Shown here one piece after another: positions 14,980 to 30,769 of a DNA stretch of 33,703 bases. The notes beneath the pieces were generated by a model. It saw only the letters and a list, made by a program, of their open reading frames with translations, was not told the DNA's origin and ran no database searches. The position numbers and the translations under genes are program-made. The DNA is from Planctomycetes bacterium RIFCSPLOWO2_12_38_17 (lineage in GTDB: Bacteria; Planctomycetota; Brocadiia; Brocadiales; Brocadiaceae). The DNA lies in contig MHYY01000041.1 of assembly GCA_001830285.1 (NCBI GenBank), positions 1 through 33,703 on the forward strand, written 5' to 3'. Positions within the stretch are counted from its first letter, which is position 1, and each line of letters starts with the position of its first letter.

Positions 14980-15128
14980 AATAGATGTATACGGATGGGA
15001 AAAACTGAAAAGAAACACAATTGAGTGTGTGATTCATTCTTCAGATAATATAAAAATTTAACGTAGTGTTGCCCATGTATTTTTGCTTTTCATTGTAAGT
15101 TGTCTTTTGTGTCTTGGTATTGATACAA

Positions 15129-15157
15129 TATTTTAGGCGGTAGAAATTCCTAAAATA
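15129..15157. promoter_or_regulatory. 9-bp perfect dyad before the SUMF1-like gene
   Basis: TATTTTAGG (15129-15137) and its exact complement CCTAAAATA (15149-15157) are separated by 11 nt and end 3 nt before the AGGAA ribosome-binding site (15161-15165) of the next gene. It may be an operator overlapping a -10 region (a weak TTGTGT-N16-TATTTT can be read here) or an RNA hairpin at the ribosome-binding site. Confidence 0.45.
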
Positions 15158-15171
15158 GTCAGGAATTTGAT

Positions 15172-18801: not shown

Positions 18802-18863
18802 GGAGGTTTATTAAATGTGAGATAATAAATGTAGCTAAAATTTTGCATTGTGAATTTTTAAAG

Positions 18864-18892
18864 ATATTATCAATTATATTATGTATTGTCAA
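18864..18892 (-). promoter_or_regulatory. Sigma-70 type promoter for ricT-metG
   Basis: On the minus strand TTGACA (18887-18892), a 17-bp spacer and TAATAT (18864-18869), about 63 nt before the ricT ATG. The flanking 18900-19050 stretch is extremely AT-rich and holds no recognisable gene. Confidence 0.65.
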
Positions 18893-19095
18893 GTTTAACG
18901 TTGATGTATGTAATATCTTATAAGAATTAAACTTGCATTATTAATATAAATTATTATATTATAAATATATTAAATTAGCATATTACATATAATTAATTAA
19001 GCTATCTTTTTTAAATTTTTTATTATTTTCATGGTTAATATTAGCTAATAATTAATAATTGTTTCCTGGTTTTGAAATTGGGGTTAAGTTGTATT

Positions 19096-19641
19096 ATGTC
19101 ACTGCCAGTTAAGACGATATTGATTTCTTTAATTGTGGGCATGTTTCTTTTTACGACTGACAAGAAACTAATTGCTCAGGATTCGTCCACTAAATTAAAT
19201 ATGCTGGAGATAGTTATATCAAATCTAATTGCAAGGGTGGAGGTTTTAGAAAAACGTGTTAGCGAATTAGAAAAAGGTAGGGGTGTTTCATCCGGAATCT
19301 TAAAACAACAAAAAAAGGAAATTGCTGATAAAGAACCTGCAAAATTTTTATCAATGAGCGGATTTGAGGATATTGGCAGGGGATTTTTTACTAAAAACGT
19401 ACGTTTTAATCAATTTGGCAATAATGTACTTTTTACTGGAGAGATGGCTAATAAATCAGATAAGAACTATCGTTTTGCAAAGTTTAAATTAGAGATATAT
19501 GACGATAAGGATCTACTTATAAAAGAAGAAGAGTTTACGATCCCAGATATACCTAAAGATACTACAAGAAATTTTGAGGCGATGCTATTAGGTATTGGAA
19601 TAAGTCTTATTCATAGGTATGTAATTAAAGGAGTTGATTGA
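19096..19641 (+). CDS. Secreted coiled-coil protein with FxLYD-like domain
   Basis: No specific function is recognised. I use ATG 19096 (181 aa); the frame is open to TTG 19072, but neither start has a strong Shine-Dalgarno. The N-terminus has a hydrophobic segment (about 5-22) followed by DKKLIAQD, so it is exported or membrane-anchored. A heptad-like stretch LEIVISNLIARVEVLEKRVSELEKG suggests a short coiled coil. The C-terminal part, with NNVLFTGEMANKSDKNYRFAKFKLEIYDDKDLL and IPDIPKDTTRNFEAML, fits the FxLYD pattern (G-x-V/M-x-N-x-S...F-x-L-x-Y/I-x-D), a beta-sandwich found in envelope proteins. The stop is followed 16 nt later by a long hairpin (19658-19706). Its upstream region is very AT-rich. 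Confidence 0.6.
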   Translation: MSLPVKTILISLIVGMFLFTTDKKLIAQDSSTKLNMLEIVISNLIARVEVLEKRVSELEKGRGVSSGILKQQKKEIADKEPAKFLSMSGFEDIGRGFFTKNVRFNQFGNNVLFTGEMANKSDKNYRFAKFKLEIYDDKDLLIKEEEFTIPDIPKDTTRNFEAMLLGIGISLIHRYVIKGVD

Positions 19642-19657
19642 AGCGGGAAGGGTAAAG

Positions 19658-19706
19658 TTTATTGTACGTTCTGTATTCCCTCCAAAAGAGGTAATCGTAC
19701 AATAAA
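19658..19706 (+). terminator. Long hairpin after the FxLYD-like gene
   Basis: TTTATTGTACG (19658-19668) pairs perfectly with CGTACAATAAA (19696-19706). Inside, ATTCCCTC (19675-19682) pairs with GAGGTAAT (19688-19695) with one mismatch around a 5-nt loop; a 6-nt bulge (19669-19674) separates the stems on the left side. It starts 16 nt after the stop codon. There is no U tract after it, so it may be an mRNA 3'-end stabiliser rather than an intrinsic terminator. Confidence 0.55.
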
Positions 19707-19841
19707 AAGTACTGAAAATTTAAATTTAATCAACCTGTACCTTTAAGTTAATAGTTAGAAGATTTGGAAATTTACTTGAGTTTTTTAATTGGGACCTATG
19801 GTGTACGTTTTAAATAATATAAGTAATTATTTGTATATAAT

Positions 19842-19874
19842 TGTGACAATATTCAGTGTTACAATATGTAACAC
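19842..19874. promoter_or_regulatory. Operator-like palindrome with overlapping direct repeat
   Basis: GTGTTAC (19856-19862), AATAT, GTAACAC (19868-19874) is a perfect 7-bp dyad with a 5-bp spacer, a size that suits a dimeric helix-turn-helix regulator. GTGACAATAT (19842-19851) repeats as GTTACAATAT (19858-19867), 16 bp apart. No regulator can be named. Confidence 0.45.
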
Positions 19875-19931
19875 GCAATAAGCCTTATTAATATACGTTA
19901 ATTGCATTCATTATAAATAAATTTTAAAAAA

Positions 19932-19948
19932 TGCAACAATTTGTTGCA
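19932..19948. promoter_or_regulatory. Operator-like 17-bp palindrome
   Basis: TGCAACAA and TTGTTGCA are exact complements around a single central T (19940). The size suits a dimeric DNA-binding protein; the binder is unknown. Confidence 0.4.
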
Positions 19949-20081
19949 CGTTAATAAAAAGCTGTTTTATAACATTCCTTCCTCTATCAGAAGGTCACAT
20001 CTCCTCATATTATCAAATCTTATAACATTTTAGGGAATATAAAACTCTTCATAATGTAAATTGGTATAGTACCTGCTCATT

Positions 20082-20120
20082 TTAATCCAACACATTATGT
20101 ATTCTTGATTGTTGGATTAA
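20082..20120. promoter_or_regulatory. 11-bp perfect dyad before the sigma gene
   Basis: TTAATCCAACA (20082-20092) and TGTTGGATTAA (20110-20120) are exact complements separated by 17 nt. A TATAAA follows at about 20124, so the dyad would cover the -35 zone of a promoter there. It could be a paired operator half-site arrangement or an RNA hairpin. Confidence 0.45.
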
Positions 20121-20210
20121 GGATATAAATTTGTTTGGTAAAATAACATTAATTTATAAGGGTCTTTATTGCGGGGCTTTTCTTCTCTATTCTTTGAGTT
20201 CCGCATGTTT

Positions 20211-20248
20211 AGAAAGGTCAGGGATTGTTACATTCCCCTGATCTTTCT
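20211..20248 (+). promoter_or_regulatory. Stable hairpin in the sigma-factor 5' leader
   Basis: AGAAAGGTCAGGG (20211-20223) and CCCTGATCTTTCT (20236-20248) pair over 13 positions, with a single G-U at 20217/20242 when read as RNA, around a 12-nt loop. It ends 29 nt before the sigma ATG. No U tract follows, so it is more likely a leader structure that affects translation or RNA stability than a terminator. Confidence 0.55.
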
Positions 20249-20277
20249 GACAAATCTAAGTATTTTGGGATTAGAAT

Positions 20278-21096
20278 ATGGAATTTGCATTACAAATTTA
20301 TCTTAAAGATTTAAGGAAAAATTCATTCCTCAAGACAGAAGAGGAACGAAAATTATTCAAGAAGGTTAACAAAGGGGATTCAAGGGCAAAGGATTCTATT
20401 GTAACATCTTATCTTCCGCTTGTGGTGAAGATAGCAGGCCGTTTTGCTCATTATGGAACGCCCATTGTTGATTTAATAAGCGAAGGTAATATTGGACTTA
20501 TGCGAGCTGTCGAAAAGTTTGACTGTAAAATCAGTCATCAATTTGGTAAGTATGCTTCGTGGTGGATTAAGTGGTCTATTATAAGAGCACTAATCAATAG
20601 TTCAAAAACAATACAAATTCCTGTATATATGGCAGAAAGGGTTTCGAGGTGGAAGAAGGTTTCTTCAAGACTCATGAATCATTTGCAAAGACTTCCTGAT
20701 AGAAGCGAGATTGCACAAGAACTAAAAGTTGATGATAAGCGGGCTCGTTGGATAGAAAGTGCAATAAAAAATACGTATTCTATAGATGATGTCTACCCTA
20801 ATCATGAGAATGATTCAAGGGAATTGAGCGAGAATATACCAGATAATCGCGCAAAAATGCCTGAGGACGAATTTGTCGAGTCTTGCGATAAAAAAGAATT
20901 AAAAAGACTGCTGGAAATAATTGACCAGCGAGAGGCTTCTGTATTAAAGATGCGGTATGGTTTTGATAATTATGAGCCTATGACTTTGCGTGAAGTTAGT
21001 AAGAAACTCAGTATCAGCCGAGAGTGGGTCAGAAAGATTGAAAGAAAAGCCCTGACTAGGTTAAACAGGCTTATGACTCATAAAAAAGCTGTTTAA
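20278..21096 (+). CDS. Sigma-70 family RNA polymerase sigma factor (group 2-like)
   Basis: The 272-aa protein directs RNA polymerase to a promoter class. Region 1.2 is present (LQIYLKDLRKNSFLKTEEERKLFKKVNKGD, about 5-34). Region 2 has DLISEGNIGLMRAVEKFD (65-82) and KYASWWIKWSIIRAL (91-105), the -10 melting and recognition helix. Region 3 begins at IQIPVYMAERVSRWKK (112-127). Region 4 ends with MTLREVSKKLSISREWVRKIERKALTRL (235-262), the -35 reading helix-turn-helix. Region 1.1 and the non-conserved insert of the primary RpoD are missing, so it is an alternative (RpoS- or group-2-like) factor. GGGA about 7-10 nt upstream is a weak ribosome site. Its leader and upstream DNA hold several dyads. 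The regulon is unknown. Confidence 0.9.
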   Translation: MEFALQIYLKDLRKNSFLKTEEERKLFKKVNKGDSRAKDSIVTSYLPLVVKIAGRFAHYGTPIVDLISEGNIGLMRAVEKFDCKISHQFGKYASWWIKWSIIRALINSSKTIQIPVYMAERVSRWKKVSSRLMNHLQRLPDRSEIAQELKVDDKRARWIESAIKNTYSIDDVYPNHENDSRELSENIPDNRAKMPEDEFVESCDKKELKRLLEIIDQREASVLKMRYGFDNYEPMTLREVSKKLSISREWVRKIERKALTRLNRLMTHKKAV

Positions 21097-26085: not shown

Positions 26086-26140
26086 AACATGTTCAATTAT
26101 AAAAATTATTATCAATTGTATTTAATTTATTAGTTTGTCT

Positions 26141-29100
26141 ATGAGAAGACTTTTATACTTACCGAACATATTTCCGTTAAAATCCATTAAAAACAGGTTG
26201 ATAGTTATTTTTTTGATATGTTCGTTTACTCCGTTGTTATTGTTACGTTTCATGGCGTTTCCCAAAGCACAAAAGGATCTGGAAGAAGCGCTGATAAGAA
26301 ATTTAGAAGGTGTGATGCAAAAGCAGGCAGAAATTGTAAAGATGTGGTTTGAGGAACGGAAGCACGATGCAAAGATTGTTAGTAGAAATCTTTCAGCCGT
26401 GATGGGAAAAAGCGTAAGCGAAAAAGACACTAACACCGTGAGGTTGAATAACTTTGCTGAAATGATTAGAAATGAATATGGTTATAAGGGGGTAAGTATT
26501 ACTTCAAGCGATGGCACAACACTTGTATCTGCAGAAAATGAGTCTAGAGGCGCCAACCTGATAGGCTATGATTATTGTAGAGAGGCTTTGAATGGGAAAA
26601 TCTTTATATCAGGTATTCAGCGGGATTTTAGTGCTGTAGTGGATAATATTGAAAGTGTAGGTTATCCAATAATGTTTTTGTCTGCACCTTTAACAGATAC
26701 TAACGAAACCACAATAGGTGCAATTATTCTCAGGGTAAATACAGCGCCTCTTAGCGGGATTATGAAGACGGCTAAACTTGGAAGAACTGGGGAAACATTT
26801 CTTATAAACAAAGAAGGTTTTATGTTAACAGAGTCACGGTTTTCAGATGCTTTGAGAAATGGGGGCATTATTAAACGAAATACCGCCCTTGAATTAAGGG
26901 TGTTGAATCCTCGTACAGGAAAGCTTACAGAAGGCGCTCAAAAATGTCTGAGTGGTAAAGATGGCTATGATGCGGAAGGTTATATGAATTACGATGGTAA
27001 TATTGTTCTGGGTGCTTGGTGCTGGATTCCAGAGTATGATTGTGGCTTGGTTGCGCAAATAGATATTAGGGAAGGATATGGCGCTGCTTACAGCTTGAAA
27101 AGGTTTGTACTCTCCATGCTTCTGGTTCTTGCGTTTCCATTGACATTAATTGCGTTTTACTTTGGCAGGAGAATTTCAGCCCCAATTCTGGATATGACTG
27201 AAATAACAAAAAGAATTGCTGGTGGAGATTTGGGGCAAAGAGTAAAAACAAGCGATAAAAAGGACGAGATTAATGAATTAGCACAGGCGTTTAATGTAAT
27301 GACAGAGTCCCTGGAAGAAAAGACTATTAAATTAAGAAATTATACAACTGACCTTGAAAAGATAGTAAAAGAAAGAACTCTTAAATTGCAGGAAACATCT
27401 AACTTTTTAAATAGTATCTTGGCAGGTTCAACAGAGTATTCAATAATTGCAGAGGATTTAAATGGCAATATCCTGGAGTTTAACAAGGGGGCAAGTCTTA
27501 TTTATGGATATAATCCTGAAGAAGTGGTTGGTGTTGCCAACGTTAGAATACTTCACACATACGAAGATGTTAGGTTAGGAAATGTTGAAAAGATATTAGA
27601 GATTGCCCGTGGAACAGGCCGTTATGAAGGTGAGGTAATGAGAAGGAGAAAAAACGGCGAAATTTTTCCAGTTCATGTGACATTCACTCTCAGGCGCGAT
27701 GAAAATGGCCAACCCATAGGTTTTGTTGTGATATCAAAAGATATTACAAAAGAAAAGTTGGTGGAACTTGAAAAAGATATTGTAAATAGTATAAACAAAG
27801 CGATTGCATCAGGGCTTGATATTAGAGATGTTTACAAAAACATCTATTTTGAATTAAGGCGTATGATTGATATTTCATGGTTGGGTGTATCGTGCCTTAT
27901 AGAGGGTGCTGAAATAACTGAAGATTCCGATATTGTTGAAGGGGTATTATTTACAGATTTATGGATAAACAAGACACAACATGGTATTTATGCTATGCCT
28001 CATGGTATTGCATATGAAAAGGGTGTACCAGTTTTTGTATCGGATACTCTGGAGAAAAAATATCCAATTGATCAGGATTTATACGAAAAGGAGATACGTT
28101 CTTATCTCTGTTACCCTCTAAAATCAAAAGGAATTACTATCGGAACTGTTACACTGGGAAGTAGAAAAAAGGATGCATTCAGAGAGATACATTTTGGATT
28201 ATTGAATCAAATTACCCCACAGTTGGCAATTGCTGTTGAAAATACAAGGCTTTTTGTGTCCATAAGAGAATCTGAAGAAAAGTACAGGGATTTAGTAGAA
28301 AACGCACCGGAAATGATACATGAGATGGATCCAAGAGGAAAATTTATCAACGTTAATAGAACAGAGTTGGATAAATTAGGTTATTCATTGAAGAAAATGA
28401 AGCAAATGACCCTTGAAGATATTGTGCCAGCGAAGTACAAGGATGATATAAAGCGATATATTCAACGTGTAATACATAAAGGAAGCGGAGAGTTGGAAAT
28501 AGTGTTCCTTACAAAATTGGGAAAGGAAATCAATGTAGAGATTAATGGGACGGCACTTTATAATAAGACGGGAGAGTGTGTTTGTACAAGGGCATTTGTA
28601 CGTGACATTACAGAACGAAAGCGGATGGAAGAACAGGTGCGCAGGTCAGAAAAACTGGCGTCTATGGGTGAGCTGGCTGCTGCAATTGCCCATGAAATAA
28701 GAAACCCTTTGGGGGCAATATGTAATTCAATTGGAATTTTAGATGCACATTTAAAACTAAACGGACAGGACAAGGTTTTATTAGAGATGATTATTGGACA
28801 ATCAGAGAGATTAGACAGGATTATAAGTAGTTTCTTAACCTTTGCTCATCCAAGAGAGCCTTCTTTTTCTTTACAGGATATTAAGGACGTAATTAAAAAT
28901 ACTATTTTTCTTCTCGAACAAGACAACCGATTTACAGATAAGATTGAGGTTAAAGAAACTTATGAGAGCATATTGCCGAAAGTGTTCATTGATCCTGATT
29001 TGATTCATCAAGTGTTATGGAATTTGTTTGTGAATTCACTTGATGCTATGCCACATGGTGGACAAATTAGAATTATGGTAAGAAAGGCAACCCTGTTTTT

Positions 29101-29359
29101 AAGGGACGCAGTAGAAATTGTAATTTCCGATACCGGCATGGGCATACCGCCTCATACGCTTGATAAAATATTCGAGCCTTTTTATACTACAAAAACCGAG
29201 GGAACTGGGCTGGGTCTCGCAATGGTACAGCGCATTATTGATGACCACGGTGGAACGGTTGACGTTAAGAGTAAGGAAGAGAATGGAACAACATTTTTTA
29301 TAAAACTTCCTGTTGGGAATGAGAAATGGGTTGAACAGGGTGGTCTTTTAGTGGGTTAG
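26141..29359 (+). CDS. Membrane sensor histidine kinase, dCache-HAMP-PAS-GAF-PAS-HisKA-HATPase
   Basis: I choose ATG 26141 (1072 aa); a TTG at 26135 is also in frame, and neither has a clear Shine-Dalgarno. Order of parts: TM1 (about 18-38), an extracytoplasmic double-Cache-like sensor domain (about 45-315) with KLGRTGETFLINKEGFMLTESRF, TM2 (about 322-342), HAMP (about 343-395), a coiled linker, PAS (about 420-537), GAF (about 545-705), PAS (about 710-825), and the kinase core. The phosphorylated histidine is H851 in AAIAHEIRNPLG; ATP-binding boxes are LWNLFVNSLDAM (N box), DTGMGIP and TEGTGLGLAM. It senses an external ligand through dCache plus internal signals through PAS/GAF and passes phosphate to the adjacent regulator 6 nt downstream. 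A second gene at 32305 carries a strikingly similar sensor half. Confidence 0.92.
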   Translation: MRRLLYLPNIFPLKSIKNRLIVIFLICSFTPLLLLRFMAFPKAQKDLEEALIRNLEGVMQKQAEIVKMWFEERKHDAKIVSRNLSAVMGKSVSEKDTNTVRLNNFAEMIRNEYGYKGVSITSSDGTTLVSAENESRGANLIGYDYCREALNGKIFISGIQRDFSAVVDNIESVGYPIMFLSAPLTDTNETTIGAIILRVNTAPLSGIMKTAKLGRTGETFLINKEGFMLTESRFSDALRNGGIIKRNTALELRVLNPRTGKLTEGAQKCLSGKDGYDAEGYMNYDGNIVLGAWCWIPEYDCGLVAQIDIREGYGAAYSLKRFVLSMLLVLAFPLTLIAFYFGRRISAPILDMTEITKRIAGGDLGQRVKTSDKKDEINELAQAFNVMTESLEEKTIKLRNYTTDLEKIVKERTLKLQETSNFLNSILAGSTEYSIIAEDLNGNILEFNKGASLIYGYNPEEVVGVANVRILHTYEDVRLGNVEKILEIARGTGRYEGEVMRRRKNGEIFPVHVTFTLRRDENGQPIGFVVISKDITKEKLVELEKDIVNSINKAIASGLDIRDVYKNIYFELRRMIDISWLGVSCLIEGAEITEDSDIVEGVLFTDLWINKTQHGIYAMPHGIAYEKGVPVFVSDTLEKKYPIDQDLYEKEIRSYLCYPLKSKGITIGTVTLGSRKKDAFREIHFGLLNQITPQLAIAVENTRLFVSIRESEEKYRDLVENAPEMIHEMDPRGKFINVNRTELDKLGYSLKKMKQMTLEDIVPAKYKDDIKRYIQRVIHKGSGELEIVFLTKLGKEINVEINGTALYNKTGECVCTRAFVRDITERKRMEEQVRRSEKLASMGELAAAIAHEIRNPLGAICNSIGILDAHLKLNGQDKVLLEMIIGQSERLDRIISSFLTFAHPREPSFSLQDIKDVIKNTIFLLEQDNRFTDKIEVKETYESILPKVFIDPDLIHQVLWNLFVNSLDAMPHGGQIRIMVRKATLFLRDAVEIVISDTGMGIPPHTLDKIFEPFYTTKTEGTGLGLAMVQRIIDDHGGTVDVKSKEENGTTFFIKLPVGNEKWVEQGGLLVG

Positions 29360-29365
29360 TGAAGA

Positions 29366-30769
29366 ATGGACGAAAATAAAATTCTTATTGTGGAAGATCA
29401 GGATGCTATGCGGGAATCCCTTGTTATAGCTTTCAGAGACGAGGGATATCAGGTCGAGGGCGTTGCAAGTGGAGAGGAAGCGATTCAAAAATTGAGTAAT
29501 GATGTTTATGACCTGATTATTACAGACCTCAAAATGAAAAAAGTTGATGGCTTAGAGGTACTGAAGGCAGCAAAGACTGCAAACACAGCATCAGAAGTAG
29601 TGCTTATTACAGCTTATGGCACTATCAGCACAGCCGTTCAGGCGATTAGAGACGGGGCGTACGATTACGTGACAAAACCCTTTCGTCACCATGAAATCCT
29701 AAAAGTTGCCAAAAAAGCCATTGAAAAGAAAAACCTAAAGGACAGAGTTAAATACCTTGAAGGTGAAATTCGTGATAAATATAGATTTGAAGGCGTTGTA
29801 AGCAATTCTAATGCAATGCTTGAAGTTCTTAAAGTTACAGCCCATGTATGCCATACAGATAGCACCGTGCTTATTACAGGTGAAAGCGGTACCGGTAAGG
29901 AGTTAATTGCGAGGGCAATTCATTATAACAGTCCTAGGAAAGATGCCCCGTTTGTCGTAATTAACTGTGGCGCATTACCTGAAAATTTACAGGAAAGTGA
30001 ATTGTTCGGGCATGTAAGAGGCTCTTTTACAGGGGCGATTAAGGATAAGGTGGGATTATTTCAACATGCACAAAAGGGGACTATCCTGCTTGATGAAATC
30101 GGTGAGACCCTGCCTTCAACACAGGTAAAACTTTTGCGTTTTTTACAGGATGGAGAGATACGTCCTGTTGGAGGTAACAAACCAATATATGTGGACACAA
30201 GAATCATTGCTGCTACAAATGAAAATTTAGAAAAAGCAGTTGAGTCTGGGAGATTTAGGAAAGACCTCTTTTATCGAATTAATGTAATACGTGTTCATCT
30301 TCCTTCCCTTAGAGAACGGAGAGAGGATATACCTCTTTTGATAGACTATTTTTTGAAAAAGTTTTCAGACAAACTAGAAAAGGCGAACAAGACATTTTCT
30401 AAAGAGGCAATGCATGTACTGGCTAACTACGATTGGCCTGGTAATATTAGGGAATTACAAAATGTGGTAGAAAGAGTGGTTGCACTGTCAAAGAATGAGA
30501 TAATAGGTGTTGACGAGCTTCCAATCCCTGTAGAAGAGCTTGCAGCGCTTAATAAAAAACCATTTGAGCAGGAGAAGAAAAAATCTTTTATTGTTACAAC
30601 GCTTGCAGAACAGGAAAAAAATGCCATTATTGATGCGCTGAATAAATACGGGGGCAATCAAACAAAAGTTGCTCAGACACTTGGGATATCCACAACAACA
30701 CTCTGGAGAAAAATCAAGAAATACAGGATAAAACCTCAGCATGAAATTTCAGATGACGTGGGGAATTAA
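29366..30769 (+). CDS. NtrC-family sigma-54 response regulator
   Basis: This 467-aa regulator is the partner of the preceding kinase (6-nt gap). The receiver domain (1-120) has acidic D11/D13, phosphoacceptor D54, T82 and K104. The AAA+ sigma-54 activator domain has Walker A GESGTGKE (172-179), Walker B LLDEIGE (241-247) and the sigma-54 contact loop at 219-224, which reads GSFTGA instead of the common GAFTGA. The C-terminus has a Fis-type helix-turn-helix (AIIDALNKYGGNQTKVAQTLGISTTTLWRKIKKYRI). It should open sigma-54 promoters when phosphorylated. I see no clear -24/-12 promoter in the window, so its targets probably lie elsewhere or are too diverged to see. Confidence 0.93.
   Translation: MDENKILIVEDQDAMRESLVIAFRDEGYQVEGVASGEEAIQKLSNDVYDLIITDLKMKKVDGLEVLKAAKTANTASEVVLITAYGTISTAVQAIRDGAYDYVTKPFRHHEILKVAKKAIEKKNLKDRVKYLEGEIRDKYRFEGVVSNSNAMLEVLKVTAHVCHTDSTVLITGESGTGKELIARAIHYNSPRKDAPFVVINCGALPENLQESELFGHVRGSFTGAIKDKVGLFQHAQKGTILLDEIGETLPSTQVKLLRFLQDGEIRPVGGNKPIYVDTRIIAATNENLEKAVESGRFRKDLFYRINVIRVHLPSLRERREDIPLLIDYFLKKFSDKLEKANKTFSKEAMHVLANYDWPGNIRELQNVVERVVALSKNEIIGVDELPIPVEELAALNKKPFEQEKKKSFIVTTLAEQEKNAIIDALNKYGGNQTKVAQTLGISTTTLWRKIKKYRIKPQHEISDDVGN

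Follow-up and report, generated by a model that had tools for sequence, protein, structure and literature searches.

The gap at positions 19642–20277 of the window (the whole stretch of 33,703 nucleotides that was analysed) very probably holds an enhancer-dependent sigma-54 promoter followed by a structured mRNA leader, which together would control a sigma-70-family, RpoS-like gene. We favour this reading because the promoter box is conserved in all 18 orthologous regions, the activator sites keep fixed spacings from it despite a varying distance from box to start codon, RpoN and activators are encoded in the genome, and the base pairs of a leader hairpin covary. The features are as follows.

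19658–19706, no strand assigned: strong hairpin behind the upstream gene (stop codon at 19639–19641), −18.4 kcal/mol, z −4.2
19842–19852, plus strand: additional half-site TGTGACAATAT (ATCGTTACA in relatives), a direct repeat conserved in the alignment
19857–19873, no strand assigned: putative upstream activator site (enhancer) TGTTAC-N5-GTAACA, identity 0.83, fixed spacing
19932–19948, no strand assigned: putative second activator site, a perfect palindrome in the window, TGYYAC-N4-GTTAT in relatives
20020–20034, plus strand: conserved segment TTATAACATTTTAGG (TTACAACTTTTAAAG in relatives) between enhancer and promoter, from the alignment
20063–20076, plus strand: sigma-54-type −24/−12 promoter box GGTATAGTACCTGC (GG-N10-GC)
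20082–20120, no strand assigned: window-specific 11-bp dyad with the predicted transcription start inside its left arm
20170–20205, plus strand: predicted leader RNA hairpin A, arms 20170–20179 and 20196–20205, pyrimidine-rich 16-nt loop
20211–20248, plus strand: predicted leader RNA hairpin B, arms 20211–20223 and 20236–20248, −22.4 kcal/mol, z −4.8
20278–21096, plus strand: sigma-70-family sigma factor, the presumed controlled gene, 272 aa, regions 2, 3 and 4 (Pfam, NCBIfam)
26135–29359: sensor-kinase-like large ORF directly 5′ of the NtrC-type activator gene
29366–30769, plus strand: NtrC-type activator, candidate enhancer-binding protein, with receiver, AAA+ and Fis-type HTH domains

The host genome is a MAG of 2.1 Mb, and its family includes Candidatus Brocadia. 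The MAG was compared within a set of 18 Brocadiaceae genomes carrying an orthologous sigma gene (63–73% protein identity), which are not independent, as they belong to one family and most are MAGs. Such orthologs were found in genera g1, g7, g9 and g11, and the remaining genera of the family have paralogs only, with about 40–46% identity. A second sigma-70-family paralog at this level of identity is present in most family genomes, for example at G000:C92:19911-20714. In the relatives whose neighbourhoods were listed, the genes 5′ of the sigma ortholog are not the FxLYD-domain gene of the window, and therefore the shared upstream sequence belongs with the sigma gene. The convergent membrane-protein gene downstream is retained in several relatives. 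The FxLYD-domain protein itself (window:19072-19641, 189 aa) is probably a secreted coiled-coil protein and was not detected close to the sigma gene in relatives.

In the sigma protein, Sigma70_r2 and r4 exceed the Pfam cut-offs and r3 falls slightly under. Among NCBIfam models, those for RpoD/RpoS-type proteins come closest, but all RpoS and RpoD equivalog models score below their cut-offs (TIGR02394: 202.5 bits, cut-off 378.7), so that by these models the protein is not assigned to RpoS as an ortholog. In one relative (L094, genome G039) the sigma ortholog is broken over two frames (C73:2621-3250 and 2443-2640), either because this copy is decaying or through an error of assembly; the leader there has no hairpin A, and box and enhancer are still in place.

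The GG-N10-GC box was found in 18/18 orthologous upstream regions, with 0.013 chance matches expected per 230 bp. Its 14-bp consensus is GGCATACCATCTGC. Box and start codon are between 104 and 215 bp apart in these regions. Spacing and identity were calculated on 15 non-redundant representatives of the 18 regions, and in all 15 of them the TGTTAC-N5-GTAACA dyad lies 206–210 bp, and the second site 127–131 bp, upstream of the GG of the box, in keeping with the range of about 80–200 bp expected for activator sites. Mean pairwise identity in these representatives reaches 0.83 in the dyad, 0.75 in the second site and 0.86 in the box, against 0.28–0.42 in the sequence that separates and flanks these elements. 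The DNA-binding domain of RpoN (PF04552) is present in 24/24 genomes tested, the host genome among them, and the host encodes eight full activators (enhancer-binding proteins, PF00158). Upstream activator sites, a GG-N10-GC box, RpoN and activators make up the anatomy of enhancer-dependent sigma-54 transcription. The exact letters of the box count against the sigma-54 reading: its −12 element is CTGC and the −24 element of the window is GGTAT, whereas TTGC and GGCAC are the common elements at these positions. Of 15 paralogous or distant sigma genes checked, none was preceded by a CTGC-type box; the single weak match among them, GGCA-N6-ATGC, belongs to L024.

The site at 19857–19873 is the only perfect TGTTAC-N5-GTAACA site of the host genome, and the closest other matches lie inside or beside unrelated genes. 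Its left half (19857–19867) is repeated directly 15 bp upstream by the half-site at 19842–19852. The conserved segment at 20020–20034 could possibly be the site of a bending protein or of a second regulator. Across 33 genomes we detected no further target with a TGTTAC-type dyad and a box at 70–130 bp. Two minor observations concern the same stretch. In relatives (e.g., L009 and L041) a conserved palindrome, TTGTATACAA, adjoins the activator half-site on its upstream side and may possibly be a further operator; the form in the window, TTGTATATAA, is degenerate. On the minus strand at window:19932-19949 the second palindrome is followed by TTTTTTAAAA, which gives a terminator-like score, and no minus-strand gene is evident there.

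If these sites serve an activator, then we can ask: Which of the eight would bind them? Some 9 kb separate the sigma gene from the gene for the NtrC-type activator of the window, and likewise in G006. Orthologs of this activator are present also in genomes without the sigma gene. Another candidate, L076, is near-universal but does not occur in G023, which carries the sigma gene, and was rejected. A scan for similar sites near activator genes, covering the eight of the host and dozens from relatives, gave nothing convincing. None of the activators could thus be paired with the sites, which counts against our explanation.

The leader provides the second part of the evidence. Across relatives, 94.4% of alignment cells in hairpin A are paired, and 7 of its 10 pairs show double (compensatory) changes. 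The covariation score was 0.387 compared with 0.209 in shuffles, none of 500 shuffles scored as high, and slid controls were far lower. A covariance model of this hairpin gave one strong match per genome, always 5′ of the sigma gene, in 14 of 33 family genomes. There was no strong match in any of the 33 where the sigma ortholog is absent; because the model was built on the same leaders, its strong scores at the sigma gene arise partly by construction, and what is informative is the lack of strong matches elsewhere. Hairpin B occurs in most relatives. In 8 leaders, 90% of its cells are paired, and in these 8 its covariation was no higher than in shuffles. Two leaders (L004 and L032) are shortened to about 90 nt and have neither hairpin, although promoter and enhancer are kept; hairpin A is missing or altered in L039 and L094. 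These exceptions count against our explanation. Two pairings were tried and rejected. The first was a translational lock formed by the pyrimidine loop of hairpin A and the ribosome-binding region, for which shuffled loops did no worse; the second joined the 3′ arm of hairpin B to the stretch before the ribosome site and clearly beat shuffles in L033 only.

Read together, these features suggest the following course of events. An NtrC-type activator would bind the TGTTAC/GTAACA sites about 120–220 bp upstream and, through DNA looping, could activate the RNA polymerase–sigma-54 complex at the GG-N10-GC box. The transcript, with a start predicted from the box near 20088, would carry hairpin A and usually hairpin B ahead of the start codon. 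A second, post-transcriptional control probably acts at the leader, where hairpin A would add a step. We advance a more specific version only tentatively, giving it somewhat less than an even chance: an undescribed two-layer relay of anammox-type Brocadiaceae in which sigma-54 and a dedicated activator drive the RpoS-like sigma gene, and its mRNA carries a new, gene-specific RNA element, hairpin A with its conserved pyrimidine loop, read by a protein or a small RNA. The word "dedicated" is based here on the single strong site set per genome.

The dyad and the second site might instead be operators of a dimeric regulator, e.g., of CRP/FNR or GntR type, at a sigma-70 promoter, the box being coincidental. 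Perfect 17-bp dyads are typical for many such regulators and a scan for sigma-70 promoters did return weak matches, but these were fewer than in shuffled sequence (6 vs 10.7), and the 14 bp with the highest conservation (identity 0.86) suit a sigma-54 box and not −35/−10 elements. The sites are also fixed relative to the box at 120–220 bp upstream, too distant for simple repression or for activation of class I/II. We regard this arrangement as quite improbable. Somewhat less improbable, though still unlikely, is that hairpin A acts not as an RNA structure but as an inverted repeat in the DNA, to which a repressor binds within the 5′ leader. Its arms, GCAGATCA...TGATCTGC, do double as a DNA dyad; yet pairing is kept through G.U in several sequences, which would be meaningless in duplex DNA, and the spacing between the arms varies.

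The original prediction had also allowed for an unannotated small RNA gene. In its present form this would be an independent sRNA made from the sigma-54 promoter and ending after hairpin B, with the sigma gene transcribed from another promoter or by read-through. The strong stem-loops would fit, and sigma-54/CbrB is known to control sRNAs through these half-sites, CrcZ and CrcY among them (PMC6296734). However, no T-run follows the leader hairpins, hairpin B received no terminator call, and Rfam leader and riboswitch families gave 0 matches at gathering score in the window. L004 and L032 retain promoter and gene without the hairpins. On these grounds, and because the strong hairpin A matches all lie just 5′ of the sigma start codon, invariably so in 14 genomes, a separate small RNA gene finds no support, and we consider it very unlikely.

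A sigma-54 promoter with a leader ahead of a sigma gene can be compared with several known systems. The E. coli rpoS mRNA has a structured leader permitting post-transcriptional control. The RpoS-like gene studied here likewise has a predicted structured leader at its 5′ side; unlike in E. coli, this leader has no Rfam match and a pairing of loop and ribosome site is unsupported. In Borrelia, the Rrp2-RpoN-RpoS pathway forms a sigma-54 to sigma-S cascade (PMC2940757, PMC4014564). The Brocadiaceae region resembles it in placing an alternative sigma-70-family sigma gene behind a predicted sigma-54 promoter that an NtrC-type activator would switch on, and the gene would qualify, by its domains and the box, as a sigma-54 target of the same kind. 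It differs in belonging to another phylum, in a sigma factor that remains below the RpoS equivalog cut-offs, and in carrying two conserved, putative enhancer sites whose distance is fixed, together with a leader hairpin that is likewise conserved.

The half-sites recall the sigma-54 promoters that CbrB activates in Pseudomonas (crcZ, crcY and PP2810; PMC6296734), where TGTTAC/GTAACA subsites, identical in half-site to ours, also lie upstream of GG-N10-GC. There, one forward and two reverse subsites stand 20–25 bp apart (PMC6296734). At the sigma gene we did not find this F1/R1/R2 arrangement with its spacing; in contrast, the dyad is compact, with a 5-bp spacer, its half-site recurs as a direct repeat 15 bp upstream, and a third site follows about 75 bp further on. 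According to the same source, CbrAB is exclusive to pseudomonads (PMC6296734). A survey of sigma-54 targets covers Planctomycetota and rpoN autoregulation (PMC12316311); its main text contains neither "anammox" nor "Kuenenia", and the sigma gene is not mentioned in the passages considered. Searches of the open-licence literature gave no description of such a relay from sigma-54 to a sigma factor in anammox bacteria. Little work has addressed global regulation in anammox bacteria and related Planctomycetota, and the genetic tools for them are poor. The predicted relay may offer an entry point, as RNA-seq data already at hand for Brocadia could be used to examine transcription starts, targets of RpoN and the regulon of the sigma factor. 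The relay would also extend sigma-54 control of an RpoS-like gene beyond the Borrelia cascade, to a case in which the enhancer sites can be read, and hairpin A would be a new candidate leader RNA limited to one gene.

The original prediction had started from five dyads in the gap, and all five are present: a two-part hairpin at 19658–19706 (outer arms 19658–19668/19696–19706, 11 bp, perfect), a perfect palindrome at 19856–19874 (8-bp arms, 3-nt spacer), another at 19932–19948 (8+1+8), the dyad at 20082–20120 (arms 20082–20092/20110–20120, 11 bp, perfect) and the hairpin at 20211–20248, whose arms match at 12/13 bp. Their density is above chance. We counted 5 perfect dyads (arms of at least 8 bp, spacer up to 30), while 200 dinucleotide shuffles gave a mean of 0.9 (sd 1.0) and 0.5% of them reached 5; when arms had to reach 11 bp and the spacer could be up to 40, there were 2 against 0.035 in shuffles. 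Sliding 636-nt stretches across the rest of the window contained at most 4 dyads (mean 0.75), and none attained 5. The claim that no other gap is as dense is thus correct by dyad number but not by rate, since two shorter gaps, 18802–19071 and 14980–15171, have slightly more dyads per kb (11.1 and 10.4 compared with 7.9).

Conservation divides the five. The palindromes at 19856–19874 and 19932–19948 are conserved, and their fixed distance from the conserved sigma-54 box supports the proposal that a multi-input control region governs the sigma gene; 20211–20248 is recurrent, and 19658–19706 and 20082–20120 have no counterpart. The dyads were accordingly neither unconserved as a group nor at chance density. 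Covariation favoured a hairpin outside the five, 20170–20205, over 20211–20248; this 10-bp G.U-containing hairpin had been overlooked, as had the box at 20063–20076.

The two dyads without counterpart appear to be outside the conserved switch. For 19658–19706, blastn found no match in relatives, where other genes lie upstream, and no T-run follows it on either strand; it is probably a 3′-end structure of the upstream gene. The dyad at 20082–20120, which the alignment showed to be particular to the window, was rejected as a leader hairpin, as the predicted start at about 20088 cuts its left arm and would leave half of the arm untranscribed. It may possibly be a DNA-level site.
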